From: Demequina sp. NBRC 110053
Lineage (GTDB): Bacteria; Actinomycetota; Actinomycetes; Actinomycetales; Demequinaceae
Direction of reading: 5' to 3'
Assembly (NCBI RefSeq): GCF_002090095.1
Contig: NZ_BBRJ01000002.1
Coordinates: 795,265-859,264, forward strand
Length of the DNA: 64,000 bases
Shown here: piece by piece, positions 10,478-62,442 of the stretch
How positions within the stretch are numbered: position 1 is the stretch's first letter
How the letters are laid out: every line of letters starts with the position of its first letter
The notes under the pieces: model-generated
The model's database searches: none
Told to the model about the DNA's origin: nothing
Seen by the model: only the letters and a program-made list of their open reading frames with translations
Program-made: the position numbers and the translations under genes

Positions 10478-10786
10478 TCAGCGGAGGCTGTTGCGCAGCC
10501 GCTGCACGGCGGCATCGGCGATGGCGGGTGTGCGGTGGTCGGCGAGAGCGCGGATGACAGAGGCGGGCGTGCGCGGGTTGGCGATGAGCGCGCGCAGCAC
10601 CTCAGGGTCGCGATCGTGACCGAGGGACATCAATGCCGCCACCGGACAGTCGGAGCGTCGAGCGACGGCGGCCCTCACGGAGGGGCGGCGGTCGACGGCG
10701 AGACGCAGCAGATCCTGAGACGCCAGCCCCGCGTCGTGGACGAGCTCGAGCTCCTCCGACACGGGTCCCGCAGGCGACGTGCTCAC
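10478..10786 (-). CDS. Small leucine-rich-repeat-variant (LRV/HEAT-like) protein
   Basis: A 102-residue soluble protein of unknown function. Its repeats read LRLAVDRRPSVRAAVARRSDCP and LRALIANPRTPASVIRALADH, the roughly 24-residue helical LRV pattern with D/N-R-P and VR motifs. The start is GTG with GGAGAG upstream. It is one of three related genes in 10.4-17.0 kb; its repeats resemble those of the next gene upstream. It is a candidate protein-binding scaffold; no catalytic motif is visible. Confidence 0.7.
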   Translation of the reverse strand: MSTSPAGPVSEELELVHDAGLASQDLLRLAVDRRPSVRAAVARRSDCPVAALMSLGHDRDPEVLRALIANPRTPASVIRALADHRTPAIADAAVQRLRNSLR

Positions 10787-10944: not shown

Positions 10945-11670
10945 TCAGCCGATGCCCGGCTGGGGGCCCTCGGGCGAGAACTGCACAGGGAGGATGCCTC
11001 CCAAGGTGACCGAGGCGGCCCGCTTGGAGGCAGGAACTGCTCCTTCTCTGCCCCGCCCGACGGCGGGCCGCGGCGCATAGGCGCGCGGCGAGGTGCGCCG
11101 GGATGGAGCATCAGCCGGCGAGGCCTCTCCTGATCTCAGCCCGGCACTGTCGAGAGCCCTGTCGTGCAGCTCCGCCGGCAGTCCGCCGCCTGCGGTGGAC
11201 GGTCCGCGGTCCTGTCGCTCGGCCGCGAGCTCGGCGACGGCGCGCTCGGCGGCGCGCCTGACCTCGGCTCTCCGATGGTCCAGAAGGCGGGCACGAACCG
11301 CATCGGGCGTCGCCCGGTTGTGGGCCACGGCCCTCAGGACGGAGGAGTCGCGATCGGAGGCCAGGTGCTCGAGCACGGCGGCGTTGGCCGCGGGGTTCGC
11401 TCCAACGGCCGCGCGCACGGCAGCGCGAGCGTCGTGGGAGAGGCTCGCGAGCACGGCGAGGGGGCAGTCCTCGCGCCTGCCGAGCACCTCGCGCACGTCG
11501 ACGTCGCGGTGGTGAGCGAGCTGCGCGAACCGGGGCCTCGGAAGCTCCGCGCCGGATGCCTCGTGCCACTCGGGGCTGACCTGGCGACGGCGCACCTGCG
11601 ACGTTCCGAGGCCCGAGCTCGCCATGAAGGCGCGCGACCACGAGCCGTCATCGCGCGCATCGGCCGCCAC
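10945..11670 (-). CDS. LRV/HEAT-like repeat protein with basic disordered C-terminus
   Basis: A 241-residue protein. The middle (about residues 45-150) holds four helical LRV-type repeats, for example VLASLSHDARAAVRAAVGAN and VLRAVAHNRATPDAVRARLL. The last ~85 residues are Arg/Pro/Gly-rich and probably disordered. The GTG start at 11670 has AGGAG four bases upstream; ATG at 11625 is an alternative. Function unknown. It lies just downstream of the SipW peptidase gene on the same strand (180-bp gap), so co-transcription with that operon is possible. Confidence 0.65.
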   Translation of the reverse strand: MAADARDDGSWSRAFMASSGLGTSQVRRRQVSPEWHEASGAELPRPRFAQLAHHRDVDVREVLGRREDCPLAVLASLSHDARAAVRAAVGANPAANAAVLEHLASDRDSSVLRAVAHNRATPDAVRARLLDHRRAEVRRAAERAVAELAAERQDRGPSTAGGGLPAELHDRALDSAGLRSGEASPADAPSRRTSPRAYAPRPAVGRGREGAVPASKRAASVTLGGILPVQFSPEGPQPGIG

Positions 11671-11850: not shown

Positions 11851-12459
11851 TCAGGCCCCGGCGGAGGCCCCCGTGCCGGCAGAGCTGGGCGCGCGCTCTC
11901 GGCGACGCTGCACGACCGCGCTGACCACCTGGTAGCCGGCGTAGAGGAACAGCACGCCCGCCACGATCGGGATGATGACGGCGCGCATGTCCCCGTTCAC
12001 CACGTTGTTGACCCAGCCGATCCACGGAACGGAGTACCAGACCTCTCCGCGGAGCTGGACCTCCATCACCGGCTCCTCGTCCGGCACGCCGTTGGCATCC
12101 CCCTTGGTGACGAACCGCGGCTCCTCGCCGGGCACGCTCGGCTGGATGATCTCGACCACGCGGTGCGTCACGACCTCGGCCTTGCCCGACTCGAGCTGAT
12201 ACGTGATGACGGAGCCGATGCGAACGTCGTCGGGCTCCACGGGCCGCACGATCACAAGGGTGCCCGCCGGATAGCTCGGCTCCATCGAGCTGGTGATGAT
12301 CGTGTACGGCGTGCTGCCGGTCACCGCCGGCAGGAGCACGACCAGGACCGCGACCAGCGACACGAGAGCCAACAGCCCCCAGCTGAGGCCAAGGCCGATG
12401 TAGCCCAGGAGGCCACGCTCCTTGGACTCGGTGTCCTCGCGTGCATCGATGTCGGTCAT
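11851..12459 (-). CDS. SipW-type (ER/archaeal-like) signal peptidase I
   Basis: Membrane serine protease that cleaves the unusual signal peptides of TasA/camelysin-like exported proteins. The 202-residue product has an N-terminal membrane helix (about 23-47) and the catalytic Ser58 in SSMEPSYPAG. His99 (VVTHRVV) replaces the Lys of ordinary bacterial signal peptidase I. There is also a GDAN motif (120-123) and a second membrane helix near 165-185. That Ser/His pattern defines the SipW/ER class. ATG at 12459 is chosen because it overlaps the stop of the previous gene as ATGA. It is last in an operon whose upstream products carry SipW-type signals, which are its likely substrates. Confidence 0.88.
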   Translation of the reverse strand: MTDIDAREDTESKERGLLGYIGLGLSWGLLALVSLVAVLVVLLPAVTGSTPYTIITSSMEPSYPAGTLVIVRPVEPDDVRIGSVITYQLESGKAEVVTHRVVEIIQPSVPGEEPRFVTKGDANGVPDEEPVMEVQLRGEVWYSVPWIGWVNNVVNGDMRAVIIPIVAGVLFLYAGYQVVSAVVQRRRERAPSSAGTGASAGA

Positions 12460-13412
12460 GATCGTCCTCCCGCGTCGCCGCGACGCCGCAGCACCCACCA
12501 CGCCGCCACGCCACCCAGCACCAGTTCGATCATCCACGCGATGACGAACCACTCCTGGTAGAACCTCTCCGTGTTGAACTCGAGCGACGCGCCCGCGGGC
12601 TCCTCGTGAGTGTCTGGGGCCGGGTCCGCCGTCGGCTCGGGGGTCGGCTCGGCCGTGGGCTCCGCCGTGGGCTCGACGGACGGCGACGGCGTGGGATCGG
12701 GCCCGCCGACGGCGAAGCCGGGCACGACGACGACGCCGGGCGACGGGCGTCCCGCTCCGCCCGAGCCCGTGCCGTCCGACCCGTCCGAGCCGGGGCCGTC
12801 GGGGCGATCCGGTCCATCGGGCGTGGGCCGGGGGTCGACGGGCGTCGGCCCCTCACCTGGCTGCTCCCCTGGCGGGGTTGGAGTTGAACAACCGTCGGGC
12901 GCGGCGACATCGTCACTGGTCAGGGTGAGGACGATGGCGAAGTTTGCTGCCTCACCCTGTGCGGTCGTGCCGTCCACGTCCGCCATTGCGAGGTCGACAT
13001 CGACGCGCAGCGATCCGCCGTCGGGCACGGCCGCGCCGCTCACGAGCGACGTGCAGCTGCCCACATCTGCGAGCGTGACCGGAGCGCCTTGGCTGGTGCC
13101 GGCGCTCGCGCCGACGGTGAGCGCCTCCACCAGGGCGGCGGCCCCCGTCACGTCAGCGATGGCGACCGCCAGGTTCGCGTCGCTGCCCCCCTCATTGCGG
13201 ACCCAGAACGGCCGATCGATGGCAGCTCCGGGGACGACCACGACGCCGTCGAACAGCCCGCCCGGGTACTGAGCCGCGTAGCTCGATCCATCGGGCGAGA
13301 TCGCGATGCTCTCCCCTGCGGCGTGCGCCGCGGGAGCCGCCGCGGACGCGGCGGTGGCTGCGAGCGCGACCGCCCACGCCACGCGCACACAGCGCGATCC
13401 GGAGGGGGCCAT
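12456..13412 (-). CDS. Exported Pro-rich protein with C-terminal membrane anchor (fibre operon)
   Basis: A 318-residue protein. It has an N-terminal signal peptide (ending about AAHAAG), then a beta-rich domain of about 140 residues (GVVVVPGAAIDRPFWVRNEG resembles the camelysin/TasA fold opening). A long Pro/Gly/Asp/Thr-rich linker with PTAEPTAEP-type repeats follows, and one C-terminal membrane helix (about 284-308) ending RRRGDAGGRS. This layout suits a cell-surface anchor or terminal subunit that spans the wall. It is translationally coupled on both sides: the start overlaps the lectin gene stop by one base and its stop overlaps the SipW start. No named family recognised. Confidence 0.7.
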   Translation of the reverse strand: MAPSGSRCVRVAWAVALAATAASAAAPAAHAAGESIAISPDGSSYAAQYPGGLFDGVVVVPGAAIDRPFWVRNEGGSDANLAVAIADVTGAAALVEALTVGASAGTSQGAPVTLADVGSCTSLVSGAAVPDGGSLRVDVDLAMADVDGTTAQGEAANFAIVLTLTSDDVAAPDGCSTPTPPGEQPGEGPTPVDPRPTPDGPDRPDGPGSDGSDGTGSGGAGRPSPGVVVVPGFAVGGPDPTPSPSVEPTAEPTAEPTPEPTADPAPDTHEEPAGASLEFNTERFYQEWFVIAWMIELVLGGVAAWWVLRRRGDAGGRS

Positions 13413-14809
13413 CAGCCCATCCCCGACAGGGAGCAGCCGTAGGAGTGCGAGATGAAGATGATCCCGGACCGGGTCCGGCTCGCCTCTCCGATGGCGACTC
13501 TGGTGCCCGCGTCACCGCCTGGACCGACCTCGTAGAGCTCGAGCGTCCATGACGCGCTCGCCCCGGTGGACGTCGCGATGTCGATCGTGAGGGAGCCAGA
13601 ACCGTTCGCCGTGTTGGCGACGACGGCGCCGTTGAGGCGCGCCTCGTAGCGCATGTTGGGCGTAGCCGCGTTCGTGGTGATGCGGTAGTTGCCCGACACG
13701 ACCGAGCACTGCACCGTCGATGGTGCGCCGCCTGTTCCTGAGAACAGGTTGCGCACCACCAGGAAGGACTGATCGGCACCGCCATCGCAGTTCTCCATGG
13801 TCGCATGGACATCAGTGGCCGGCCGCGTGATGCACTGGCCTGTCGACTCGTTGACGATCTGGTAGGCCGCGCGCACGCTCGACGCGCCCGTGTTGGTGCG
13901 CTGCAAGGTCCACCGCTGGTTCTGCGCATTCGACGCGGCGTTCATCGTGATGCCGGTGCCGGTCTGCTGCATGAGCAGGCCGTTGCTCTGGTTGGTCCGG
14001 ATGGTGTAGTAGCCCCCGCCGGTCGACGTGAACTGCCAGGACTGGTTGGTCACACCGGTGGTCTTGCAGGGCCAACCACCCACATTGGACTGGCCGGAGA
14101 AGTGGTCGAGGCAGTGCGCCGTGGAGCCGCCCTGCCAACCGTGGATGAACGCCCAGACCGAGGCGCCCGTCGTGGGCGTGTGCAGCGGGAACAGGAACTG
14201 CGAGGCCTGTGTCGCTGTGGCGTTCGCGGCACCCGTGTAGGTGCCCAGGCTGATCCTCGCGTCCACGCGCGGAGTGAAGGTCACGGAGCCATTCGCGGGC
14301 CAGTTCTCGGTGGTGCGCGTCGCAGTCGTGCGCACGCAGTACGTGCGCGACTCCCCCGCTGCGAAGCCGTCGCCCGAGACCGTGGTGAAGCTGGCTGCGT
14401 TGGCCCAGGTGGTGCCCGAGGGCACGAGCGATGGCCCCGGCGTCGCGGCAGCCGTGCAGGGGTTGCCTGCCGTGGATCGCCACACGACATAGCCGAAGTT
14501 GCCACGGTACGTGTTGCCGTTCGTCGCGCTCAGGTCGAGGGTCACCGCGGCGCGCTGCGTGCTCGAGGTGGTCGTGTTGTTGGTGACCGTGAAGCTGCCG
14601 GTGCGAGCGAGAGCCTCGTTGGCCAGCGTCGCGCTCAGCGAGCCGAAGTTCGCGGTGGTGACCGTCAGGTTCGCGGTCGACGCGGGCGCTGTCACGCTGG
14701 CCTGGGTCGTCCAGTAGGCCCAGCCGGCAGTCGTGCCAGCAAGCACGGCGAAGGTGGCCAGCCCCGCGATCAGCGCGAGGCGGCGACGGCCGTGGTGGGC
14801 GCGAGTCAT
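13412..14809 (-). CDS. SipW-dependent exported protein with ricin-B lectin domain
   Basis: A 465-residue secreted protein. Residues 9-33 are a hydrophobic signal followed by WAYWTTQ, the AYW-type processing region of SipW substrates. Residues 40-195 are a beta-rich TasA-like domain. About 228-355 is a ricin-type beta-trefoil with the QxW signatures NQSWQF and NQRWTL and a degenerate third copy DQSFLV. The C-terminal ~100 residues are another beta-rich domain. Ricin-B lectins bind galactose- or xylose-type glycans, so a carbohydrate adhesin is inferred. ATG at 14809 overlaps the previous stop (ATGA). Confidence 0.82.
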   Translation of the reverse strand: MTRAHHGRRRLALIAGLATFAVLAGTTAGWAYWTTQASVTAPASTANLTVTTANFGSLSATLANEALARTGSFTVTNNTTTSSTQRAAVTLDLSATNGNTYRGNFGYVVWRSTAGNPCTAAATPGPSLVPSGTTWANAASFTTVSGDGFAAGESRTYCVRTTATRTTENWPANGSVTFTPRVDARISLGTYTGAANATATQASQFLFPLHTPTTGASVWAFIHGWQGGSTAHCLDHFSGQSNVGGWPCKTTGVTNQSWQFTSTGGGYYTIRTNQSNGLLMQQTGTGITMNAASNAQNQRWTLQRTNTGASSVRAAYQIVNESTGQCITRPATDVHATMENCDGGADQSFLVVRNLFSGTGGAPSTVQCSVVSGNYRITTNAATPNMRYEARLNGAVVANTANGSGSLTIDIATSTGASASWTLELYEVGPGGDAGTRVAIGEASRTRSGIIFISHSYGCSLSGMG

Positions 14810-15393
14810 GGCGCCACCTGGATGCCGTCGAGGGTCACGGCATAGGTAGCCGCGGTCCCCTCGGTCGTCGACGGCGCTGACGTGGGGAGGACCAGTTGGA
14901 GGCACACGGTCGCGGTGGCGCCGGGCTGCAGCGCCGTGACGACCGTGCTCGAGGTGGTGCCGAGCGCCGCTCCCGGGAGGGTGGTGGTCGGGCAGGTGCC
15001 AGCGGCGAGCCGCACGTCCCAGGCGCGGGTCGCATCGAGCCTGGCGCTCACACGGAGCGGGACCACGCCGGTGTTGTGCAGGACCAGCTGGCGGCTGGCC
15101 ACGTCGCCGGGAAGCATGTTCTGAAACACGCTCGCGGGGATCGAGACGGATCCGGCCGGCGCGCCTCCTCCCTGGGAGACCAGCAGTCGAGCGGATCCGG
15201 AGCTCACGGTGCCGCTGTCACCCATCGGGGTGGCGGCATTGAGGTAGGCGTAGCTCCCGCCGGCCGCGAGCACCGCGCCGGAGATCCCGACCGCGAGCGC
15301 CACCGCGGTCGCCAGCACTCCGCGGGCGCGGGGCGCGCGCCGGCGGTTGCCTGCGACCGGGTTCTGCCGGTCGGAAGGGAGTTGAGAGGCCAT
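14806..15393 (-). CDS. TasA/camelysin-like exported protein
   Basis: A 195-residue protein with a basic N-terminus, a hydrophobic segment (about 24-45) and GGSYAYLNA, a variant of the AYW processing site. The mature part is beta-rich, with SIPASVFQNMLPGDVASRQLVLHN resembling the camelysin opening (pGD..r.i.l.N). This suggests a minor fibre subunit or assembly factor. The ATG has GGAG eight bases upstream. It is separated from the major subunit gene by 163 bp holding a strong hairpin, and overlaps the downstream lectin gene by four bases. Confidence 0.75.
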   Translation of the reverse strand: MASQLPSDRQNPVAGNRRRAPRARGVLATAVALAVGISGAVLAAGGSYAYLNAATPMGDSGTVSSGSARLLVSQGGGAPAGSVSIPASVFQNMLPGDVASRQLVLHNTGVVPLRVSARLDATRAWDVRLAAGTCPTTTLPGAALGTTSSTVVTALQPGATATVCLQLVLPTSAPSTTEGTAATYAVTLDGIQVAP

Positions 15394-15505
15394 CGTCTAC
15401 TCCAAGGGGGGCCGCACGGGGTGCGGCGGACATCATGGTGTGCGGTGCATCGCCACAGCGGCGCGCGTGACGCGCGGCGCTGAGCTGCGCAGAGGGCTCC
15501 CTTGC

Positions 15506-15537
15506 CATGGGGTCTCGCGCGGTCGCGAGACCCCATG
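15506..15537 (-). terminator. Perfect 14-bp stem hairpin between major subunit and downstream fibre genes
   Basis: CATGGGGTCTCGCG and its exact reverse complement flank a 4-nt loop (CGGT), 20 bp after the major subunit stop. There is no U-tract, so it may be a leaky terminator or an mRNA 3'-end stabiliser that lets the first gene be expressed above the rest. Confidence 0.6.
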
Positions 15538-15556
15538 CGGGGAACTCGAGCGGGTG

Positions 15557-16174
15557 CTACGGGGCGATGACCTGCGTGACCGTCAGAGCACCGTCGGCCA
15601 CGAGGTCGACCGCGCCCAGCTGGGCGGCGTTGTCGGTGGCCGGGGAGCTGGCGCCACCGAAGGGCCAGTCGATGGTCCACGTGACCGTGATCGTGGCGGG
15701 CGCACCGGCGTTGTCGGTGACCTCGTAGACACCCGAGGTGCCGATCTCCGAGATGCTGGCGCCCTCCACGACCGTGACGTCGATGTCGCCGTCGGCGAGG
15801 ATCGCCTCAAGCGCGGTGTCCTCGGTGTCGCTGGAGGCTGCGTCGACGGCAGCGTCGGCAGGCTCGATCTCGAAGGCGAGGTCGTCACCGGTCGCGGTGA
15901 CCTCGAAGGTGTCCGTGTAGATGAGCGTGTTGCCCGGGACGATCTGCACGCCGGTCAGGTCGGTGAGCGCCTGGTCGCCGGTGCCGTTGAACTGCTTGAC
16001 CCAGCCGTCGCTGGCCCCGTTGATCGGTGCGATCGAGAGCTGACCGGCGTTGACGGTGGTGCCGTCAGCGCCGAGCTCCTCGGTGTCGTTCCAGTAGGCG
16101 AGCGACGCAGCGCCGCCCATGAGCAGGATGACGCCGGATCCGGTTGCGATCGACGCCTTGGTGAGCTTGTTCAT
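15557..16174 (-). CDS. Alternate-type (SipW) signal peptide protein, probable major fibre subunit
   Basis: A 205-residue exported protein. Its N-terminus (MNKLTKAS, hydrophobic VILLMGGAAS, then LAYWND) is the actinobacterial alternate signal cleaved by SipW-type peptidases, as in TasA and related alternate-signal families. The mature protein is acidic, Thr/Ala-rich and beta-rich (GQLSIAPINGASDGWV), without Cys, fitting a self-assembling fibre protein. ATG at 16174 has GAGGGAACC upstream; earlier in-frame starts lack the signal. First gene of the operon and followed by a strong hairpin, both consistent with high expression. Confidence 0.85.
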   Translation of the reverse strand: MNKLTKASIATGSGVILLMGGAASLAYWNDTEELGADGTTVNAGQLSIAPINGASDGWVKQFNGTGDQALTDLTGVQIVPGNTLIYTDTFEVTATGDDLAFEIEPADAAVDAASSDTEDTALEAILADGDIDVTVVEGASISEIGTSGVYEVTDNAGAPATITVTWTIDWPFGGASSPATDNAAQLGAVDLVADGALTVTQVIAP

Positions 16175-16465: not shown

Positions 16466-17002
16466 TCACGCCTCCTCGGCTGGACGGTAGCCACGGACCG
16501 GCGCAGTGCGGACGGGACGCGCGGGCGGCTCCTCATACAGGTGGACCACGTCCGCGTAGGTGACGCGCTCGCGGAGCTCCGGAACGCCGTGGTCGCGCCC
16601 ATGGTCGGGGGCCTCCAGCGCCGCGTCGAGCCGCCTCACGGCACGCGCCCGCACCTCGTCCTTGCGGTGGAAGGCGAGCCGTTCGGCGATGGCGTGGTCG
16701 AGCACGGGGTTGTCGAGCAGCGCGTGGAGCACAGCGACGTGGCGATCACCCGCCAGATGCTCGAGGATCGACGCGGTGGCTGACTCGTTGCCGGCCATCG
16801 CGGCCCGCACATCGACGTTCTTGTCGTGGGCGAGCGCGACCATCGTGCCGAGCGGCAGGTCGGTGCGGCGCGCGATGTGCTCGCGCACGAGCGCGTTCTT
16901 CCCAGCGGCGAGAGCCTGGATCTGACTCCGCCCGAGGTCCTGGCGCTGGGCGAGCTCGACGTCCTCGCTTGCGCCGTCCGCGTAGGTGAATCCCCGTGCC
17001 AT
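16466..17002 (-). CDS. LRV/HEAT-like repeat protein
   Basis: A 178-residue soluble protein with about four LRV-type helical repeats between residues 25 and 130, for example MVALAHDKNVDVRAAMAGNESA and VLHALLDNPVLDHAIAERLAFH. A basic C-terminal tail follows, with tyrosines (VTYADVVHLYEEPP). The start is ATG at 17002 with GGAG six bases upstream; an ATG 12 codons earlier has no such site. It precedes the fibre operon on the same strand, with a 291-bp gap. It is a paralogue of the two LRV genes beyond the operon. Function unknown. Confidence 0.68.
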   Translation of the reverse strand: MARGFTYADGASEDVELAQRQDLGRSQIQALAAGKNALVREHIARRTDLPLGTMVALAHDKNVDVRAAMAGNESATASILEHLAGDRHVAVLHALLDNPVLDHAIAERLAFHRKDEVRARAVRRLDAALEAPDHGRDHGVPELRERVTYADVVHLYEEPPARPVRTAPVRGYRPAEEA

Positions 17003-17211
17003 GTCGACTCCATCCCGCCGAGGCCACGGTCCGCGCATCGGACCGGGCCCGCACTCGTGACGCTACGCCCGAGCCGTTGCAGCCGCATGGCTCCCGGGTA
17101 ACTGCGACGTAACGCGCTGTCGGATTCGTCACACGGGAGGGAGCTGGCGACGCTGCGCGGCGCCGACCGGCGTCACCGCTGGCAGCGGTCCGTTCTCAGT
17201 TCTGAGCGAGG

Positions 17212-34547: not shown

Positions 34548-35618
34548 GTGTTCGCCTATGCCGCCGGGGCCCCCGACAGCCCCGGATACGCCGTCGTGAC
34601 AGACCGCTTCCTGGTCCTGCTGAGCGCCGATGCGCCCGCGGAGACGGTGCGCGCGCTCCACCGTCTGCTCGACTCGCCGGCGGCGTCGGCTGAGGCGGCG
34701 ATCGAGCGACTGTCGGCGCCGGAGGGAGCCGACAGGTTCGCTGTGGTCGAGATCGTCGACCCCTGGACCCAGACCTTCCACGTGTCGGTGCGCGGAGACA
34801 TGCGGGTGGACATGGGCGGAGCCTCCACGACGCGCTTCACGTGGCCCCACGATGACGAGCTGCTCACCGGAGAGGCGGATGGCGTCGAGACGCTTCACCT
34901 CGCTCTCGGCGAGGTCGCCGGCGACAGCCCCAACCTGCCGCTGCGCCATGGCGCGGTGCTCGCGAGCGCCATCTTCCTCGACGCGGTCAACCTCAGCGAG
35001 GGTGCTGCGGAGCCCGACCCTCAGCACGACACGATCATCGCGGGCGCGGAGCCCGCGGTCGCCTCGCCGGCCTCGTCGCACCCCGTTGCTGCCCCTGCCC
35101 TGGCCACCGGCGCCGCCGCACCCGCCCAGCCGGCCCCTGGCCCGGCCGTGCCGGGCCAAGCCGAGGGCGCGACCCCGGCCCGCGCATCGGCCGCGACCGA
35201 TCTGCCCCGCGCGGTGGATCCACGGCCGCGAGCCGTCGACCTGGCCTCGCTCATGGCGACCGGCCCGGCGCCGCTGTGGACGCTCACGCTGCCCGACGGC
35301 CACGAGCTGTACGCCGCGCCGCAGATCGTCGTGGGCCGGCGTCCGTGGCGGTCGAGCCCAGACGAGACCCAGACGTACTACGTCAAGGCCCCATCCCCGC
35401 ATCGCGAGATCTCCAACAAGCACGTCGAGTTCACCGTCTCGGGAGGGCAGCTCCGTGCGCGCGACCTCGACTCCACCAATGGCACGGTCGTCGAGTCGCG
35501 CGACAAGCCTCCGCGACTGCTGCGCGACGGCAACGCCACGCGCCTCGACGTGGGCGACGTCGTCGACCTCGGCGAGGGCTTCCGCATCCGCATCGGCGCG
35601 CGCGCAGGGTCGTCTTAG
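34548..35618 (+). CDS. FHA-domain protein (first of cluster)
   Basis: Phospho-threonine reader of 356 residues. Residues 1-150 form a domain I do not recognise ([20 protein letters not shown]). About 155-260 is an Ala/Pro-rich linker that contains QHDTIIAG with Thr162 in an acidic setting. The FHA fold occupies about 265-350, with VVGRRPW, the Ser/His motif [11 protein letters not shown] and LDSTNGTVV. No signal or membrane helix is seen, so it is cytoplasmic. First gene of a plus-strand cluster with a Ser/Thr kinase and PP2C; it may bind phosphorylated partners encoded nearby. The GTG start looks leaderless. Confidence 0.85.
35177..35190 (+). repeat. Copy of dispersed 14-bp motif CCCGCGCATCGGCC
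   Basis: Exact copy inside the linker-coding part of the first FHA gene, where it encodes ARASA. Confidence 0.6.
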
Positions 35619-35693
35619 TCACACTGTGATGGTCGACGGCGCGCGGTTTGGGCAGAATGTGCCTGGGTCTCAGAGACATAGGGGGTGAGGGCC

Positions 35694-36830
35694 GTGGCTA
35701 GACGTGCGACCGCACGCCCTCCCGTCCTGCCTGGCTACAGCTACATCCGCCCGCTCGGATCCGGCGGATTCGCGGACGTCTTCCTCTACGAGCAGGACAT
35801 GCCGCGGCGCGTGGTGGCCGTCAAGGTGCTCGTGGACGACGCCGTCAACCCCGACGTCCTGCGAACCTTCAACGCCGAGGCCGACATCCTCGCGCGGCTG
35901 AGCGCCCATCCCTCCATCGTCACCATCCACCACGCCTCGATCTCTGCCGACGGCAGGCCGTACTTCGTCATGGAGTACTGCCCCGAGAACATGAGCGCCA
36001 AGTACAAGAAGGCCGCGCTCGGCGTGCCCGAGGTGCTCGACGCAGGCGTGCGCATCGCCGCCGCTCTCGAGACGGCGCACCGCAGTGGCGTCCTCCACCG
36101 CGACATCAAGCCATCGAACGTGCTGCTCACGACCATGGGCGCGCCCGCCCTCGCCGACTTCGGCATCGCCGCCGCGGTGTCGCGCAGCGACGAGGCCCCA
36201 GAGGTGTTCGCCATGTCGATCCCCTGGAGCTCCCCCGAGGTGCTGCAAGGCGACGTCTCGGGGTCGATCTCGTCCGAGGTGTGGAGCCTGGGCGCGACGC
36301 TGTACACGCTGCTGGCGGCCCGCGCGCCGTTCGAGCTGCCGTCGGGCGAGCGCATCCCACGGGAGCAGCTCCAGGCACGCACCATCAAGTCCAAGTACGT
36401 CCCGACCGGCAGGGACGACCTGGGCGAGCGGCTGGAGTCGGCACTCGCGCGCGCGCACGAGAAGCGCCCGGACGATCGCTTCCCATCGATGGCGGCCTTC
36501 GCCGAGGAGCTGCGCTGGGCGCAGTACGACCTGGGCCTGCCTCCGACCGCCTTCGACGTGGTCGACTCGTCCTGGGCCAGCGCCTCCGCACCGGTCGACT
36601 TCGAGCAGGACGCCTCGCGCGGGCCCGTGATCTCGACGGTGAGGCAGGACTCGCGGCGCGCCGAGCGGGCCAAGGCGCTCGCGTCCCAGCAGCGCATCCA
36701 GGAGCAGCGCGCGTCGGAGGGGACCGCCAAGCGGTCGACGGTGAGGGCGGGGGCGATCGGCGCCGTCGTGGGGGGGATGGTCGTGGCCGCCGCCGCCGTC
36801 GGAGCTCTGTTCGCGACGGGGGTGCTGTAG
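35694..36830 (+). CDS. Membrane-anchored Ser/Thr protein kinase without PASTA domains
   Basis: Hanks-type kinase of 378 residues. The glycine loop is LGSGGFADVF (21-30), ATP Lys44, Glu62, catalytic HRDIKPSN with Asp137, and DFG at 155-157. A basic Arg/Gln-rich juxtamembrane segment follows, then one membrane helix (about 352-375) at the very C-terminus with only a few residues outside. It therefore lacks the extracellular sensor seen in PknB. GTG at 35694 follows a GGGGTGAGG site; GTG at 35685 is an alternative. The 2002-residue surface protein gene starts at the next base, suggesting tight coupling of kinase and surface protein. Confidence 0.9.
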   Translation: MARRATARPPVLPGYSYIRPLGSGGFADVFLYEQDMPRRVVAVKVLVDDAVNPDVLRTFNAEADILARLSAHPSIVTIHHASISADGRPYFVMEYCPENMSAKYKKAALGVPEVLDAGVRIAAALETAHRSGVLHRDIKPSNVLLTTMGAPALADFGIAAAVSRSDEAPEVFAMSIPWSSPEVLQGDVSGSISSEVWSLGATLYTLLAARAPFELPSGERIPREQLQARTIKSKYVPTGRDDLGERLESALARAHEKRPDDRFPSMAAFAEELRWAQYDLGLPPTAFDVVDSSWASASAPVDFEQDASRGPVISTVRQDSRRAERAKALASQQRIQEQRASEGTAKRSTVRAGAIGAVVGGMVVAAAAVGALFATGVL

Positions 36831-39800
36831 GTGGCCTCCGCTCCCCCGCCCGTGCGCCGGCGCGGGCCCGTGCTTCGCTGGTCGGCGGCCGCGGTCGCCG
36901 CGGTGACCGTCGTCACAGGCGCCGTCCTCGCGCAGGGCTACGACGAGCAGGAGATGCCGCGGCTCGAGACGGGCGTGTGGGTCACCCGCGACGACGGCCG
37001 CTACGCGCGCGTCAACACCGACCTGGGCGAGCTCGAGCTGGTGCGAGCCGTCGCGGAGCCCGCCGGCGTCACCCAGGCGGGGTCCCGCAGCGTCGTCTAC
37101 ACGCAGGGGTACGCGCAGGCGTGGCCCATCGACCCGTCGGCGCCGTTGGACCTCGTCGACGGCGGCGAGGACGGGCCGTCCCCAGCCGCGCAGCTCGCGA
37201 GCCCCACCCCCTCCGGAACGCAGCAGGTGGCAACGGCGGGCGACTATCTGCTGTACCGCACCGCGCTCGGAGAGGTGTACCTGGGGACCTACCCCGAGCA
37301 GGGCGCTCCGATGGGGTCCACCCAGCTCCTCGATCCGCTGGCCGGTCAGCAGGACGAGCAGGCGGACGACTCCGAGCGGTACGCCGCAGCGGCGGTCGCC
37401 GTCGACGACTCCGGAACCGTGGTCGCGTACTCGGCCGCCGAAGAGGCGATCCGCGAGTTCGACGCCTCCGACGGCACCTGGACGGGTGAGCCCGTGCCCG
37501 TCAGCCCCGCGCCCGCAACCGAGGCCGAGCTGTCTCTGTCCTTCGCGGACGACCTCTGGGTCATGCTCGACGCGACCACCGGGCAGCTGTGGGTCGAGGG
37601 CGCGGACGCGCCCGTCGCCCTCGAGCTCGAGCCCGATGCGGTGCTGCAGGCCACCGCGTCCGCAGCGGATGGCGTGCTCGTCGCCGACGGCGCCGGGCTG
37701 ACGCGCGTCGACACCGTCACAGGCACCGCGGAGCGCATCGCCAATGCGTCGGGCACTCCGGCGCCTCCCGTCACCATCGACGGCAGAGGCTACGCAGCGT
37801 GGGTGAGCACTGCCGGTGCGTCCCTGTGGGATGCGGCCACGGGCGCCGTCACGTCTCTCGAGGTCGAGCCCGGCACCTTCGACGATGTCCAGGCCACGGC
37901 GCCGGCGTTCCGCTCGAACGGCGACCGTGCTGTCCTGTCAGAGTCCGGGACCGGCACCATCTGGACCCTGCCGGACGGCGAGCTGGTGCCCGCCGCCGCG
38001 TGGGACGCCGTCGAGGACACAGACGAGGTGCTCGGCGAGCGGGCGGTCGAGGACGTGGTCGAGCAGGAGCCACCGGTCGCCGTCGACGATGCCCTGGGCG
38101 TCCGAGCCGGATCCGTCGTGTCCCTGCCAGTGCTGTACAACGATCACGACCCGAACAGCAAGGACGTGCTCACGATCGACTCCGCAAGCATCTCCGGCCT
38201 CGACGACCCGGACTTCGGCGAGCTCGGCCTGGTGTCCCAGGATCAGCAGGCTGTGATCCGCGTGCGCGCCGCGTCTGGATCGACCAGCTTCACCTACGCC
38301 GTGACGGATGGCACCGCGACCTCCGAGGCCGCGACCGTGACACTGTCGGTGGTCCCGGAGAGCGAGAACTCGGCGCCGGTATGGTGCGGCGTCGACGCGT
38401 GCACCCAGGAGTGGCCGCGGCCCCAGATCGCGCCGGGAGGCTACTCCGAGATCCCGATCCTGCGCGGCTGGGTCGACCCCGAAGGCGATGCGATCGTGCT
38501 GACCGATGCGCGAGCGGACGACCTCGACGCCCCCGTCACCGTGGTGCCGTCTGACGACGGCTCCGTCGCCATCCGCCACCTCGACCCCAACGCCGGCGAT
38601 GCGGTCATCCCCATCACCGTGACGGTCGCCGACGCGTACGGGCTCGAGAGCACGCGGGTGCTCGAGCTCCAGGTCACCGGCGCACCCGCGCTGGAGGCCC
38701 AGCCCATCGCGCTCGCCGGGGCACTCGGCGAGCCGCGCAGCGTCGAGATCGCCGACCATGTGAGCGGCGGGTCCGGCTCGTACCGGCTCGTGGACGCGCT
38801 GCTCACGCAGGCGAGCGATGACGTCACGGTGACGCCGATCGCCGCGAGCGGGGCGATCGAGCTGACGGCGCAGGCGCCCGGCCGCTTCAGCGCCACGTAC
38901 ACGGTCGAGGACACCGTGACGAACGCTCAGGCGACGGCGACGCTGCGGTACACCGTCGCGGAGGAGAGCCGCCCGATCACGATCCCGCCGCTGACCGCGT
39001 TCGTGCGCGCTCAGGAGGACACGACGGTCGACGTCCTCGCGGCGGCGCAGGAGACCTCGGGGCGCGTGCTGATGATCGCTGAGGCGACGAGCGCCGACCC
39101 GAACCTCAGCGTGAGCGTCGTGGGGACGTCCTACGTGCGCGTGAGCGGCACGACCGAGGACGGCGAGCCTGGTCGTGTGGGCACGGCGGACGTCCTGGTC
39201 GCGGACGGCGCCGGCAACACGGCCTCCACGCAGCTCACGGTGTTCCTGCTGCCTCCCGCCGACGGGCTCGGACCCATCGCGATGCCGGACACCGTCTCGG
39301 TGCGTGCGGGCAGCCAGATCGACATCGACGTCCTCGACAACGATGCCTCGCCGCGAGGAGAGCGGCTGATGCTGTCGCCCGAGATCGAGGGCTCGGGGCT
39401 CGCGGACGAGCTCGCGTTCGCGTCAGGGAAGACCCTGCGCTACCTCGCGCCGGCGACTCCGGGCGTGTACACGCTGCGCTACACGACCTTCATCGAGTCC
39501 GACGTGTCGCGCACCGACAGCTCGAGGGTCACCGTCACCGTCCTGCCCGAGGGAGCGAACCTCCCGCCTGAGCCCCGCACCCTCACGGCACGAGTGCTCG
39601 TGGGGCAGTCCGTGCGCATCCCGGTGGATCCCGCAGGCATCGACCCCGACGGCGACGCCGTCACCCTCGTCGACGTCAGCCAGCCGCCTCCAGCGATGGG
39701 CACCGCGTCCGTCTCAGGATCTGGCGCAGCCATCAACTACCGCGCGCCCATCCTTCCTGTCGAGGGCGGGCAGGTGACGTTCACCTACACCGTGGTGGAC

Positions 39801-42800
39801 GAGCAGGGCGAGGCGGCGACCGCATCGGTGCGGGTGGGAGTCCTCGGCAGCGAGCTCAGCGATGTCGCTCCGGTCACGTACAGCGACTACGTGAGCGCGC
39901 AGGTGGGCTCGACGTTCCCCGTGCCCGTGGAGCCGCTGCTCAACGACTCGGATCCGCTGCAGGGCGAGCTGCGAGTCATCGACGTCCGCCCGAACGCGAC
40001 GCCGGAGTCCTCGGAGTACGCGCGGCTCGAGGCGCTGCTCGACCGCGCGGCATTCGAGGCCGATGGCACCATCGCCGTGCTGCCGGGCGACGTCGCGGGC
40101 ACTCACTCGTACATCTACACCGTGGAGTCCCCGGTGTCGCTGTCGACGGCGGAGGGCCGCATCGTCGTCGACGTGTCCGAGCAGGCGAACCCGTCGACGC
40201 TGCGCATCCAGGACACCGTGCTGACGGCGCGGACGCGGCACGACCTCGAGGCCGGCGTCGATGTCGTCTCGGGCAAGGTCCAGTGGCAGGGCGGCGATGT
40301 CTCCGGCCTCCGGCTCGCGCTGTGGGACGAGGTCCCGTCCGGGCTGACCGTCAGCGGCTGGACCGTCTCCGGCAGCCTCCCCCGCGAGCGCACGATCGTG
40401 CCGTTCTCGCTCACGGGCACCGACTACGCAAGCGAGCAGGTCACGAGCTACGGATTCCTGCGGATCCCCGCACTCGACGACATGCGCCTCCAGCTCGCCG
40501 CTGACATCGCACCCATCACGGTTGAGGAGGAGGCATCCGTCGACATCGACGTGCGCGAGCTGCTGGACATCGGCCCGACCGACGCCGTCGAGCTGCGGGA
40601 CGACCCGGTCTACGCCGTCCAGCGCCCGAGCGCGCGGTGCACCCCAGGTGGTGGTTCGACGGTGACCTACGCCGCGGGTCGCGAGGCCCCCTGGGCGGAC
40701 ACGTGCTCCGTGGTCGTGCGCCTCGCGAGCCAGGACACGTGGAGCGTCGTGGCGGTGCCGCTGTCGATCGTGCCGCTCGACCCCCAACCCATCCTGGGGC
40801 CCGTCAGCCGCACCATTCGGCCGGCCGAGGACGACACCGTCGACCTCATCGGTGAGCTCGTCACCTGGGAGGGCGGCCGCGTGGGCGACGTCGCTGACCT
40901 CGCCCTCACGACGACGTACTCCGGCTCGGCATTCGAGGTCACGACAGCGGGCGGGGTGCTCACCGCCACGGCCAGAGCCGATGCTGTGCCCGGCACGCGC
41001 GAGGTCGTGCGCGTGTCGACGCCCACCTTCGGGGGCCTCGAGACGACCGTGACGCTCGTCGTGGGCGCCGCGGCCGAGGATGCGCCGCGCGGCGCGACCT
41101 TCCGCCAGACGTGCGACGTCAGCGCCTCCAGCCGCTGCACCATCACGGTCGCCGGCGTCGCTGGCGAGTACGACCCATTTGCGGGCGCCGCCGGCGGCGG
41201 GCTGACGCTCGACACGGTCGGATCCTCCGGCACCGTCTCCTGCTCGGTGGCGACGGTCACGAAGGCCTCCGACACCCAGGTCACGGCGACCTGGCCGAGC
41301 GGCCCGCGGCCTGAGGGCGGCGAGTGCGTGGTCAACTACACCGTGGTCGACGCTCAGGGCCGTTCGGGCGCCGGCACGCTGACGATCGACGTCCAGGGAT
41401 ACCCCAAGCCTCCGGCGAGCGTCACGACGAGCGGGTACACGGGCACCTCCGTCACGCTCGACGTCGCCTTGGGGCCGGCCGCGCAGGCGCATCCCCCCGT
41501 GACGAGCGTGGCGATCCTCCGAGGGGGCGGCGCGGTCGACGCGGCCTGCTCCTCCGCCGGCGCGTCGCTGTACCGGTGCACCGTCTCCGGCCTCGAGAAC
41601 GGCGAGCAGGCGACCTACACCGCCCGTGCCGTCAACGCTGTGGGCGAGTCGCTTGACTCGACTCCCCACACCACGTGGGCGTACGAGAGCCCTGAGATCA
41701 GCTCCGTGACCGCCGCCCCCGTGTATCGCCCCACCACGACCTCCGCGACGCAGGGAGCCGTCGAGGTGACCGTCCAGTCGAGCAGCGACACCCGGTCCTT
41801 CACTGTCTCGGGCACCGACCGGACCATCCAGCGCAGCGGTGCCTCCACCACCTTCGAGATCGCGCTCCCCGTGGGACCGCAGGTGATCCAGGTGGTGCCG
41901 GTGAGCGGCTTCCGGCCGCCCACCAGCACCGACAACCTGGGTCAGGCCAAGAACGCCTCCGTCACGGTCGCCGGAAGTCCGTCGTTCGCCCAGGGCATCG
42001 ACGCTGACGCGAACGGCACGTCCATCACGGTCTCCGGCGGGGGCCTGCAGACCAACTCATCGCAGCTGGCGCGCTCCGAGGTCTGGTTCGCATGGACGGG
42101 CTCGACGCCGTCCTGCTCGATGGACGGGTCCGGGCGCGCGCGCGTCGACGGCGCGTACCGCACGTCCTCCACCAGCACCATCAGCGGCCTGGAGGAGCGC
42201 GTCCGCTACCGCGTCGCGGTGTGCGGCTCGAACGGGTATGGCGCGGTCATGAGCGGTCAGGACGACGCCTACACGTGGGTCGAGTACAACGCGCCCAACG
42301 GCAACGCGACCTACCGCGTCGCCACCACCTGGGAGCAGTCGGGGCGCACCTATCACGCCCCGCTCCGCGACGAGCCGTCGCTCGCCCGCAACAACGACGA
42401 CGGCACCTTGTACTACTGGTACGACGGCCGCAACCGCTCGACCGAGTTCCGCGTGCGCGAGGACGTCATCGAGGACATCACCGCCGCCTACTGCAGCACC
42501 TTCATCATCGAGTACTGCGGTGGCGAGCGAGCCATCACACCCGCGTCGGGGTCGCCTGCGGCGCCGGTGACCGTCACCTTCCCCGCGGCCCCGGGCGTCA
42601 CACACCCCGATGGGTCAAGCCAGGACGCGTGCTGGCCCCAGGGCGCGCCGCCGGGATCAGGCACGGTGTCGATCAGCGGCGCGGCGAGCGGGTCCGCTTC
42701 GATCACCGTCGCCGATGGCTCCTTCACCGTGACGTTCTCCGGCGCGTTCGCGACGCTCGAGACCATCACGCACCCCTTCACCACGTGTGATCCGCCGCCG

Positions 42801-42839
42801 GACCCGGATCCGACGCCCTCACCCGAGCCGTCCCCGTGA
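36831..42839 (+). CDS. Giant Ig/FN3-like surface protein with N-terminal membrane anchor
   Basis: A 2002-residue envelope protein. A short basic N-terminus and one membrane helix (about 17-35) are followed by about 370 residues rich in VxxDGxxW/DATTG strands, possibly a beta-propeller. Next come serial Ig/cadherin-like modules beginning with AVDDALGVRAGSVVSLPV (about 412), AMPDTVSVRAGSQIDIDVLDND (about 815) and YSDYVSAQVGSTFPVPV (about 1014). FN3-like modules occupy about 1523-1800. It ends in a Pro-rich PDPDPTPSPEPSP tail. There is no LPxTG motif or C-terminal helix, so it should hang outward from its N-terminal anchor. Similar proteins sit beside MoxR/DUF58 genes in other actinobacteria. 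Role unproven; adhesion or wall organisation is inferred. Confidence 0.8.
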   Translation: MASAPPPVRRRGPVLRWSAAAVAAVTVVTGAVLAQGYDEQEMPRLETGVWVTRDDGRYARVNTDLGELELVRAVAEPAGVTQAGSRSVVYTQGYAQAWPIDPSAPLDLVDGGEDGPSPAAQLASPTPSGTQQVATAGDYLLYRTALGEVYLGTYPEQGAPMGSTQLLDPLAGQQDEQADDSERYAAAAVAVDDSGTVVAYSAAEEAIREFDASDGTWTGEPVPVSPAPATEAELSLSFADDLWVMLDATTGQLWVEGADAPVALELEPDAVLQATASAADGVLVADGAGLTRVDTVTGTAERIANASGTPAPPVTIDGRGYAAWVSTAGASLWDAATGAVTSLEVEPGTFDDVQATAPAFRSNGDRAVLSESGTGTIWTLPDGELVPAAAWDAVEDTDEVLGERAVEDVVEQEPPVAVDDALGVRAGSVVSLPVLYNDHDPNSKDVLTIDSASISGLDDPDFGELGLVSQDQQAVIRVRAASGSTSFTYAVTDGTATSEAATVTLSVVPESENSAPVWCGVDACTQEWPRPQIAPGGYSEIPILRGWVDPEGDAIVLTDARADDLDAPVTVVPSDDGSVAIRHLDPNAGDAVIPITVTVADAYGLESTRVLELQVTGAPALEAQPIALAGALGEPRSVEIADHVSGGSGSYRLVDALLTQASDDVTVTPIAASGAIELTAQAPGRFSATYTVEDTVTNAQATATLRYTVAEESRPITIPPLTAFVRAQEDTTVDVLAAAQETSGRVLMIAEATSADPNLSVSVVGTSYVRVSGTTEDGEPGRVGTADVLVADGAGNTASTQLTVFLLPPADGLGPIAMPDTVSVRAGSQIDIDVLDNDASPRGERLMLSPEIEGSGLADELAFASGKTLRYLAPATPGVYTLRYTTFIESDVSRTDSSRVTVTVLPEGANLPPEPRTLTARVLVGQSVRIPVDPAGIDPDGDAVTLVDVSQPPPAMGTASVSGSGAAINYRAPILPVEGGQVTFTYTVVDEQGEAATASVRVGVLGSELSDVAPVTYSDYVSAQVGSTFPVPVEPLLNDSDPLQGELRVIDVRPNATPESSEYARLEALLDRAAFEADGTIAVLPGDVAGTHSYIYTVESPVSLSTAEGRIVVDVSEQANPSTLRIQDTVLTARTRHDLEAGVDVVSGKVQWQGGDVSGLRLALWDEVPSGLTVSGWTVSGSLPRERTIVPFSLTGTDYASEQVTSYGFLRIPALDDMRLQLAADIAPITVEEEASVDIDVRELLDIGPTDAVELRDDPVYAVQRPSARCTPGGGSTVTYAAGREAPWADTCSVVVRLASQDTWSVVAVPLSIVPLDPQPILGPVSRTIRPAEDDTVDLIGELVTWEGGRVGDVADLALTTTYSGSAFEVTTAGGVLTATARADAVPGTREVVRVSTPTFGGLETTVTLVVGAAAEDAPRGATFRQTCDVSASSRCTITVAGVAGEYDPFAGAAGGGLTLDTVGSSGTVSCSVATVTKASDTQVTATWPSGPRPEGGECVVNYTVVDAQGRSGAGTLTIDVQGYPKPPASVTTSGYTGTSVTLDVALGPAAQAHPPVTSVAILRGGGAVDAACSSAGASLYRCTVSGLENGEQATYTARAVNAVGESLDSTPHTTWAYESPEISSVTAAPVYRPTTTSATQGAVEVTVQSSSDTRSFTVSGTDRTIQRSGASTTFEIALPVGPQVIQVVPVSGFRPPTSTDNLGQAKNASVTVAGSPSFAQGIDADANGTSITVSGGGLQTNSSQLARSEVWFAWTGSTPSCSMDGSGRARVDGAYRTSSTSTISGLEERVRYRVAVCGSNGYGAVMSGQDDAYTWVEYNAPNGNATYRVATTWEQSGRTYHAPLRDEPSLARNNDDGTLYYWYDGRNRSTEFRVREDVIEDITAAYCSTFIIEYCGGERAITPASGSPAAPVTVTFPAAPGVTHPDGSSQDACWPQGAPPGSGTVSISGAASGSASITVADGSFTVTFSGAFATLETITHPFTTCDPPPDPDPTPSPEPSP

Positions 42840-42876
42840 CGCATCCGTCCATCATCTTCTCCCGAGAGGCATCCTC

Positions 42877-43842
42877 ATGACGATCTCGCCCGAACAGGCC
42901 CAGTGGTACACCGAGACGTTCTCGCTGCTCGCCGACAACGTCGAGCGCGCGATCCTCGGCAAGCGCCACGTGGTCGAGCTCGTGCTCGCGACAGCGCTCA
43001 CCGGAGGCCACGTGCTCCTCGAGGATGTGCCGGGCACCGGGAAGACGGCGCTCGCCCGGACCCTCGCGCAGACGGTCAAGGGGACGTCGTCGCGCATCCA
43101 GTTCACCCCTGACCTGCTTCCCGGCGATGTCACCGGCGTCACCATCTTCGACCAGAAGAAGGGCGAGTTCGAGTTCCATGCCGGCCCGATCTTCGCGAAC
43201 ATCGTGCTCGCCGACGAGATCAACCGGGCGAGCCCCAAGACGCAGTCGGCGCTCCTCGAGGTCATGGAGGAGGGCCAGGTCACCGTCGATGGCGTCACCC
43301 GCCACGTGGGCCGCCCCTTCCTCGTCATCGCGACCCAGAACCCCGTCGAGCAGGCTGGCACGTACCGGCTCCCGGAGGCGCAGCTCGACCGCTTCATGAT
43401 CAAGACGTCCATCGGGTACCCCGACGACGCGGCAACCCTGCGCATCATCCAGGGCGCCGCAGGTCCGGCGCCCGAAGTGCCAGCGATCGTGACGCCGGAC
43501 ACCATCGTCACGATGGCAGAGCTGTCGCGCTCGGTCTACCTCAACCCGCTCATCGCGGACTACATCATGCGGATCGTGGACGCGACGAGGCGCGCGAGCG
43601 AGGCGCGCCTGGGTGTGTCGGTGCGCGGCGCGATCTCGCTGACGCGCCTGGTGGCGACGTGGGCTGCTGCCCACGGCCGCACCTACGTCACGCCTGACGA
43701 CGTGCGTGACCTCGCTGTTCCCGCGCTCGCGCACCGTCTCATTCTCGAGCCCGAGGCAGAGTTCGACGGCGTCACCCAGGTCGACGTGATCGGGCAGGTG
43801 CTTCTCGACGTGCCGGCGCCGTCGGAGAACGGGGCCAGCTGA
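42877..43842 (+). CDS. MoxR-family AAA+ ATPase
   Basis: Chaperone-like ATPase of 321 residues. Walker A is VPGTGKTALA (about 51-60), Walker B is VLADEINRASP, the sensor region is VIATQNPVEQAGTYRLPEAQLDRF, and the C-terminal lid starts YIMRIVDATR. MoxR proteins activate or assemble metal- or VWA-containing partners and almost always pair with DUF58 proteins, as here. ATG at 42877 has GAGAGG upstream; the frame extends earlier without family sequence. It begins 37 bp after the giant protein gene and is followed 4 bp later by the DUF58 gene. Confidence 0.93.
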   Translation: MTISPEQAQWYTETFSLLADNVERAILGKRHVVELVLATALTGGHVLLEDVPGTGKTALARTLAQTVKGTSSRIQFTPDLLPGDVTGVTIFDQKKGEFEFHAGPIFANIVLADEINRASPKTQSALLEVMEEGQVTVDGVTRHVGRPFLVIATQNPVEQAGTYRLPEAQLDRFMIKTSIGYPDDAATLRIIQGAAGPAPEVPAIVTPDTIVTMAELSRSVYLNPLIADYIMRIVDATRRASEARLGVSVRGAISLTRLVATWAAAHGRTYVTPDDVRDLAVPALAHRLILEPEAEFDGVTQVDVIGQVLLDVPAPSENGAS

Positions 43843-43845
43843 GCC

Positions 43846-45204
43846 GTGTACGAGCACACGGAGACCCAGCACGGTCACACGGTGACCGGCACCCGCACGC
43901 GCGGGGTGACGGTCACGCGGTACGCCACCGAGCGCACCGGGATGTCCGCACGGGTCGAGGCCGGCCGGCGAGCGGCTGGCCGCGTCGGTGCGGCGGTGGC
44001 ACGCGCGTGGTCCGCGACGGCTGAGACGATCAACCCTGCTGGCTGGCTGCTGGTCGCGGTCGCCGCGGGTGGATTCGCGGCCGCGTTCGCGTGGGGCTGG
44101 GCGGAGGCGTGGGTCGTCGCCGTCGCCGCGACCGCCCTGCTGGTGCTGTGCATCCCCTTCCTGCTCGGACGTCACTCGTACGAGGTCGCGCTCGAGTTCG
44201 ACAGGGACCGCGTGGTCGCCGGCACCGATCTCGTGGCGGCGCTCGGAGTGCGCAACGTCGGCCAGCGGGTGTCATTGCCCGCTCTGCTCGACATCCCCGT
44301 GGGCGAGGGGCTCATCGAGGCGCACGTGCCGCTGCTGCGTGCGGGGCACGACCACCGCGAGACGCTCACCATCGCTGCCGAGCGACGCGGCGTGATCGCG
44401 GTCGGACCGATGACCATCGGACGCGGCGACCCCGTAGGCGTGCTGCAGCGCGACCACACGTGGCCGGACGTCCAGCACATCTACGTCCATCCGGCGACCG
44501 TGCCGATCCCGTCGACGAGCGCGGGGCTGCTGCGCGACCTCGAGGGCGTCGTCACCTCCACCATCGTCGACTCGGACCTCGCATTCCACGCGATCCGCGA
44601 CTACCGTCCAGGGGATTCCCGTCGCCACGTCCACTGGAAGTCGACGGCCAAGACAGGTCAGCTGATGGTGCGCCAGTACGAGGAGACCCGTCGCTCCCGC
44701 ATCGCGATCGCCATCGACCTCGACGTCTCGCAGTATCAGCACGAGGACGAGTTCGAGATGGCGGTCTCCGCCGCATCCTCACTGGGGCTCCAGGCCATTC
44801 GCGACGGCCGCGAGGTGGTGATCACCGCGAGCGCGGAGATTCCCCGCCATGCCGTGGAGCGCGTCCACTCGCTGCGCACCCTGCCCACCCTCACTCCCAC
44901 GGCCATGCTCGATGGGATGAGCGGGATCGATGGCACCGAGGATGTCATGCCCCTGCCCCTCGTGGCGGGGATGACGGCCCAGGAGGCGGAGCATCTGTCG
45001 ATGGTCTTCCTGGTGACCGGCTCGCGCCAGCCGCTGCCCTCGCTGCGCAAGGCCGCGGTCGCCTTCTCCGCTGACGTCACGGTCGTCGCCGTGCGTGCCG
45101 ACGCGGGCGCCGAGCCGGCCGTGCGGTCAGCGCGCGAGCTCACCGTGCTGACCATCGGCATGCTGCACGACCTCGGCCACCTCATGCTGCGGGGGTCGGT
45201 GTGA
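43846..45204 (+). CDS. DUF58 domain membrane protein
   Basis: A 452-residue partner of the MoxR ATPase. Two adjacent membrane helices lie at about 63-105. The DUF58 signature YRPGDSRRHVHWKSTAKTG and MVRQYEE are near 265-285, and a VWA-like region follows (IAIAIDLDVSQ). The GTG start lies 3 bp after the MoxR stop, and the stop overlaps the next start. The first 50 residues (His/Thr/Arg-rich) vary in the family. Biochemical role is unknown across the family. Confidence 0.9.
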   Translation: MYEHTETQHGHTVTGTRTRGVTVTRYATERTGMSARVEAGRRAAGRVGAAVARAWSATAETINPAGWLLVAVAAGGFAAAFAWGWAEAWVVAVAATALLVLCIPFLLGRHSYEVALEFDRDRVVAGTDLVAALGVRNVGQRVSLPALLDIPVGEGLIEAHVPLLRAGHDHRETLTIAAERRGVIAVGPMTIGRGDPVGVLQRDHTWPDVQHIYVHPATVPIPSTSAGLLRDLEGVVTSTIVDSDLAFHAIRDYRPGDSRRHVHWKSTAKTGQLMVRQYEETRRSRIAIAIDLDVSQYQHEDEFEMAVSAASSLGLQAIRDGREVVITASAEIPRHAVERVHSLRTLPTLTPTAMLDGMSGIDGTEDVMPLPLVAGMTAQEAEHLSMVFLVTGSRQPLPSLRKAAVAFSADVTVVAVRADAGAEPAVRSARELTVLTIGMLHDLGHLMLRGSV

Positions 45205-60547: not shown

Positions 60548-60581
60548 GATGGGTCCATCATCCCCCACCGTGGCCGCGCGA

Positions 60582-62387: not shown

Positions 62388-62442
62388 GCCTGCCTCCTCC
62401 TGGGGTCGCCTACGCGCCCGTCTCACCGCAGGCTAGGGATCT

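Follow-up and report, generated by a model that had tools for sequence, protein, structure and literature searches.

A Demequina operon for a probable TasA-like surface fibre with a ricin-type, probably sugar-binding subunit

The window analysed here is a stretch of 64,000 nucleotides (nt) from Demequina sp. NBRC 110053 (contig NZ_BBRJ01000002.1, positions 795,265 to 859,264). Open reading frame (ORF) calls on this window place five minus-strand genes at 11851-16174, in the order P1-P2-P3-P4-P5 (Table 1). A preliminary description, made from the sequence alone, had proposed five co-directional genes for a lectin-bearing SipW fibre, the last four coupled by overlaps of 1-4 bp. This layout holds. 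All five ORFs lie on the minus strand; the overlaps measure 4 bp (P2/P3), 1 bp (P3/P4) and 4 bp (P4/P5), and a gap of 163 bp separates P1 from P2. A promoter scan of the window returned a single minus-strand site, at 10465-10437, and none at P1; the window scan called no terminator on the minus strand. Together the five genes probably give rise to a TasA-like surface fibre with one subunit that carries a terminal ricin-type domain, probably for sugar binding; a single operon would then supply both fibre and lectin.

Table 1. Features of the operon and, in the last three rows, of its setting.
Feature	Positions	Strand	Length or basis
P1, major SipW-signal protein, probable main fibre subunit	15557-16174	-	205 aa; TIGR04089
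RNA stem-loop, 14 pairs, shortly 3' of P1 stop	15506-15537	-	folding energy
P2, SipW-like signal motif; minor subunit or adaptor	14806-15393	-	195 aa; A3 alignment, profile matches
P3, bimodular subunit: SipW-like signal motif and P2-related N-domain, beta-trefoil, C-terminal beta-domain	13412-14809	-	465 aa
P3 ricin-type beta-trefoil	13754-14188	-	P3 residues 208-352
P4, ordinary signal peptide, beta-domain, Pro-rich stalk, C-terminal membrane helix, RRR tail	12456-13412	-	318 aa
P5, SipW-type (archaeal/ER-type, Ser/His) signal peptidase	11851-12459	-	202 aa; TIGR02228
LRV-like gene between map and operon (not part of the system)	16466-17038	-	LRV below cut-off; kin in same interval of other Demequina
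LRV-like gene between operon and infA	10945-11670	-	LRV_2 below cut-off
LRV-repeat gene between operon and infA	10478-10786	-	PF01816 31 bits, cut-off 21.6

P1 and P5 are assigned by curated models. P5 scores 93.2 bits against TIGR02228 (cut-off 51.85) and 74.9 bits against the Bacillus SipW equivalog NF046067, whose cut-off of 190 it does not reach; it also matches eukaryotic SEC11 (1.7e-9). Residues S58, H99 and D121, which we take to be catalytic, are invariant in 9/9 alignment rows. The earlier identification of P5 as a Ser/His SipW-type peptidase is thus borne out by TIGR02228 and by S58 and H99. In the family scan, P1 covers positions 1-179 of the 179 in TIGR04089 at 92.2 bits (cut-off 60). 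Its motif, SLAYWND, had been described as an alternate SipW signal (LAYWND), in agreement with a score of 21.6 bits against the TIGR04088 signal model (cut-off 19), which has one match in the 2.50-Mb source genome. The Pfam scan gave no Peptidase_M73 (camelysin) match for P1, and the profiles of P1 (alignment A2, 9 rows) and P2 matched no solved structure up to E 1. Going by what is known of the family, P1 would form the shaft of a TasA-type fibre, its TasA fold being putative.

P2 and P3 are assigned by motif, SYAYLN (AYL) and GWAYWT (AYW), respectively. The preliminary description had called P2 TasA/camelysin-like and P3 a TasA-like protein fused to a ricin-B trefoil. The motifs stand in both, and the trefoil stands in P3 by Pfam and structure model, but neither protein matches a SipW-signal model in the family scan despite its motif, and Peptidase_M73 reaches 14.6 bits in P2, below its cut-off of 22.5. 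The A3 alignment of P2 has an MLPGD...LxNTG pattern, and the P2 profile matches P1 at 95.3% and the P3 N-domain at 92.9%. We infer that P5 cuts P1, P2 and P3, and P2 may serve as an adaptor or starter subunit. Homology between P2 and P4, at 23.7% probability, is not claimed. P4 had been described as a membrane-anchored, Pro-rich protein, which agrees with a reading of its sequence (alignment A4, 9 rows); the predicted topology combines a signal of the ordinary type with a C-terminal membrane helix. Family scans gave P4 no family above cut-off. Its profile, run against solved structures, matched two Scone sequences over a 19-residue stretch (E 0.004-0.005) and three weaker, unrelated entries, none of which was used. 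P4 is the probable membrane base of the fibre.

The trefoil of P3 scores 48.1 bits against RicinB_lectin_2 (PF14200; cut-off 25.6), and the structure model of P3 is a clear trefoil, so that both the Pfam score and the fold are those of a ricin-type beta-trefoil. It shares with other ricin-type trefoils (PF14200/PF00652) the fold, QxW motifs, conserved cysteines and first-repeat residues. Unlike them, it sits behind a SipW-like signal and a P2-related N-domain. The two clear QxW motifs noted earlier are present, but the lectin has three repeats, the third reading QSF. The Foldseek and VIA matches listed for the P3 model are filled by trefoils (residues 166-357), and the fold of the N-domain was therefore hardly probed; TasA is not among the matches listed, a list filled by trefoils. 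A CDtoxinA score of 19.6 bits, under the cut-off of 22, is taken to reflect the common trefoil fold, and no toxin is claimed.

Residue counts show that the first-repeat residues of the ricin-type site, which we presume would bind sugar, are retained in most of 19 rows, which suggests that the P3 trefoil binds sugar. The trefoil could instead be a spacer or a protein-binding module without sugar binding. Such a role would suit the absence of the Asp from the third repeat and the non-lectin trefoils, such as FGF, among the structure matches, but the retained first-repeat residues and a cellulose-binding domain on the equivalent subunit of another locus (L011) make it distinctly unlikely.

The identical five-gene order is found in six further loci (L006-L011), and genomes of other Demequina and of Microbacteriaceae type share it. 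This recurrence and the scores of P1, P3 and P5 above their cut-offs go beyond what chance would give. The P3 equivalents of L006-L010 and L012 have a trefoil above the Pfam cut-off, and that of L005 one under it (21.8 of 29). The L011 subunit aligns to P3 at 25% (BLAST) and carries CBM_2 (46.7 bits, cut-off 24). Before CBM_2 lies a region with one QRW motif, matched neither by Pfam nor by our in-house trefoil profile, and an earlier suggestion of a trefoil next to CBM_2 in L011 was dropped. In L072 the head consists of fn3 and a trefoil (Pfam), and in L066 the N-domain is present with no recognised head. L068 (DUF11, fn3) and L067 (no domain) gave no N-domain match and may therefore not be P3 equivalents. 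The head on the P3 N-domain changes by lineage, being a trefoil, fn3 with a trefoil, CBM_2 without a recognisable trefoil, or none that is recognised.

Shortly past P1, the P1-P2 gap folds into a stem-loop (z -3.86 relative to shuffles), and the energy of the first 60 nt past P1 is matched by just 12 of 1523 60-nt windows along the locus. Stretches of 57-144 nt were folded at eight loci, the source and L006-L012. A stem stands at the same place in all seven further loci, with z of -2.96 or lower in six and a weak -1.50 in L009. The post-P1 energy is in the lowest 1.2% of 60-nt windows at 7/8 loci, L009 again being the exception (110/1504 as low). Four control stretches elsewhere in the window gave z from -1.06 to 0.57. 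The hairpin has no T-run and was not called a terminator. It is a probable processing or attenuation point favouring P1, with the P1 message protected or transcription thinned, and this hairpin, itself predicted by folding, may keep P1 in excess over P2-P5.

P3 is matched in 3/47 Demequinaceae genomes (G000, G037 and G041). TIGR04089 is matched in 4/47, above cut-off in the same three and at 24.7 bits in G030. P5 matches 22/47 at E 0.001; the three carriers alone reach E 7e-75 or better, the next best is 2e-14, and we read the matches outside the carriers as other signal peptidases. Across the order, the P5 alignment A5 at E 1e-20 matched 74/396 genomes in 91 places, the best eight candidates at most being scored per genome, and 80 of these SipW surroundings were fetched. 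A trefoil-bearing operon subunit is present in at least 6/80 (L062, L065, L070, L072 and L086 by the in-house profile, L071 by Pfam), or 8/82 with G000 and G037; the six are a lower bound because Pfam covered ten chosen long proteins. In L086 the trefoil subunit stands after the P4-like gene, not before it. At the operon end in L062 (7377-8558), two SipW-type peptidase genes are convergent, with overlapping ends.

The P3 alignment A1 at E 1e-10 matched 19/396 genomes of the order. The match includes the N-domain in eight (G000, G037, G066, G142, G163, G277, G335 and G371), and the remaining eleven are trefoils of other proteins. Class-wide (394 genomes), matches outside the order span the trefoil region alone. 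Both searches scored the best four candidates at most per genome, and N-domain matches may be undercounted. A protein search with P3 gave 16 proteins at E 0.001, its own included, among 7997 candidates scored, and the kin of P3 are labelled RICIN domain-containing in public records.

A gene like P3, with both the N-domain and a trefoil, also occurs on its own (L161:7523-8947), the other four genes being absent from the 17 kb fetched; the same genome (G335) has the operon copy L086 as well. This lone gene and the putative status of the TasA fold in P1 would agree with P1-P3 as separate SipW-exported beta-sandwich proteins that form no fibre, P3 acting as a lectin of the wall or medium. We find this unlikely, however, given the constant five-gene order, the related SipW-type subunits and the membrane protein, all in one unit.

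On a SipW tree of 48 rows, the trefoil label takes 5 changes, at least 4 of them forced by well-supported branches, and shuffles average 12.9; the tree is that of the peptidase, not the lectin, and label changes may be losses. The source SipW falls in a 10-row clade (99/96; L062 counted twice) in which every row has the trefoil and Demequina and Microbacteriaceae are mixed. Taken with the 3/47 Demequinaceae carriers, this mixed clade is consistent with transfer from one family to another or with widespread loss.

TasA polymerises via an N-terminal donor strand, and TasA and TapA are both cut by SipW (PMC9674648). TapA starts the fibre, and the tapA stop and sipW start codons overlap (PMC10151520). 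TasA-like systems are widespread, archaea included (PMC10903470). The Bacillus systems, B. subtilis tapA-sipW-tasA and B. cereus sipW-calY1-bc_1280-calY2, share with the Demequina operon an operon-encoded SipW-type peptidase, alternate signals, a major subunit with a minor protein, and a stop/start overlap at sipW (PMC9674648, PMC10151520). In Demequina, by contrast, sipW closes the operon and the third gene encodes a trefoil subunit, and the available portions of the Bacillus papers name neither a lectin subunit nor a membrane protein rich in Pro (PMC9674648, PMC10151520).

We consider it somewhat more probable than otherwise that the product of the operon is a surface fibre of the TasA type, processed by a SipW peptidase and carrying a glycan-binding subunit. 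P1, P2 and P3 would be exported via alternate signals and cut by P5. Cleavage would release an N-terminal strand to be taken up by the following subunit, the mode known from TasA fibres, with P1 as the shaft and the hairpin past P1 holding it in excess over P2-P5. The P3 N-domain would join the fibre and the trefoil would be displayed, where it could bind surrounding glycans or the cell's own matrix. P4, taking the ordinary export route, would sit by its C-terminal membrane helix at the fibre base.

The fibre might also be a matrix cross-linker, assembled in the same way but with a different ligand, the trefoil binding the producer's exopolysaccharide or wall glycans. TasA fibres do scaffold the biofilm matrix (PMC9674648). 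The window also holds genes for a polysaccharide pyruvyl transferase (60582-62426) and a family 2 glycosyltransferase (59747-60568), though distant from the operon. The genes around this pair are presumably ribosomal protein genes. However, the operon itself is flanked by LRV-like genes, map and infA rather than by polysaccharide genes, and the ligand of a trefoil is not readable from sequence; a cross-linker is therefore possible but rather doubtful.

The earlier functional interpretation (a glycan-binding SipW fibre or matrix) is partly supported. SipW operons, SipW fibres and TIGR04089 proteins are known already. P1 is a member of TIGR04089 (exp_by_SipW_III), whose model covers the exported protein alone, with no lectin partner. 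The preliminary description was aware of no SipW fibre with a ricin-type lectin subunit, and our literature search likewise found none; it returned no paper joining SipW and ricin and none combining TasA homologs, actinobacteria and donor strand, most subscription papers lying outside its scope. For the TasA-like filament described outside Bacillus in a 2022 study, the available portions of PMC10903470 and PMC9674648 mention no lectin subunit. The type 4 pili of Streptococcus sanguinis are reported to have bimodular and glycan-binding minor pilins (PMC8179133, PMC9934059). These are alike in working, an adhesive module being added to a simple filament, but the filament is another one and no homology is claimed.

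The portions of the literature available to us describe TasA-type fibres as scaffolds of a matrix that have no part dedicated to sugar binding. Should our reading be true, one small actinobacterial operon would connect fibres of the donor-strand type with the recognition of glycans and offer a model for studying the grafting of a head onto such a fibre and its positioning there, and the target of a fibre might be read from its head domain. We give roughly even chances to the broader idea that the TasA-type fibres of actinobacteria are adhesive organelles of modular build. A gene position beside the SipW peptidase would then code for a bimodular subunit that retains its N-domain while lineages exchange its carbohydrate-binding head (trefoil, fn3-trefoil, or CBM_2 lacking a recognisable trefoil), the Gram-positive equivalent of tip adhesins in other pili.

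Upstream of the operon is map and downstream is infA-rpsM-rpsK, and LRV-like genes flank it on either side, two of the three under the Pfam cut-off. Its placement in the ribosomal super-cluster, as first described, agrees with these neighbours and is a trait of Demequina (the 3/47 carriers). All three carriers share the map-infA placement, and both flanks are visible in G000 and G037. In G041 the operon is spread over two contigs, P1 standing at the end of one, after map and an LRV-like gene, and P2-P5 on the other, ahead of an LRV-like gene and infA. G037 differs from G000 and G041 in where among the LRV-like genes the operon is inserted. Regions were fetched from 11 of the 44 operon-free genomes; all (11/11) show secY-adk-map, LRV-like ORFs and infA-rpsM-rpsK, and these 11 map-infA regions gave no P1-P5 match. 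None of nine flank genes is present in the L006-L011 stretches, which makes the ribosomal setting a peculiarity of Demequina; in view of this and of the 11 operon-free regions, the possibility that operon and ribosomal genes are functionally linked was considered and set aside. The gene next to the operon in L006, L007 and L010 is, we assume, an alpha-glucan phosphorylase.

In the 11 operon-free Demequina genomes (L142-L152), the map-infA interval is filled by one to five LRV-related ORFs. Elsewhere in the window, a plus-strand cluster at 34548-47699 encodes an FHA protein, a 2002-aa Big_9/cadherin-like repeat protein, a MoxR-type ATPase and a transglutaminase-core protein, and is possibly another large surface system.

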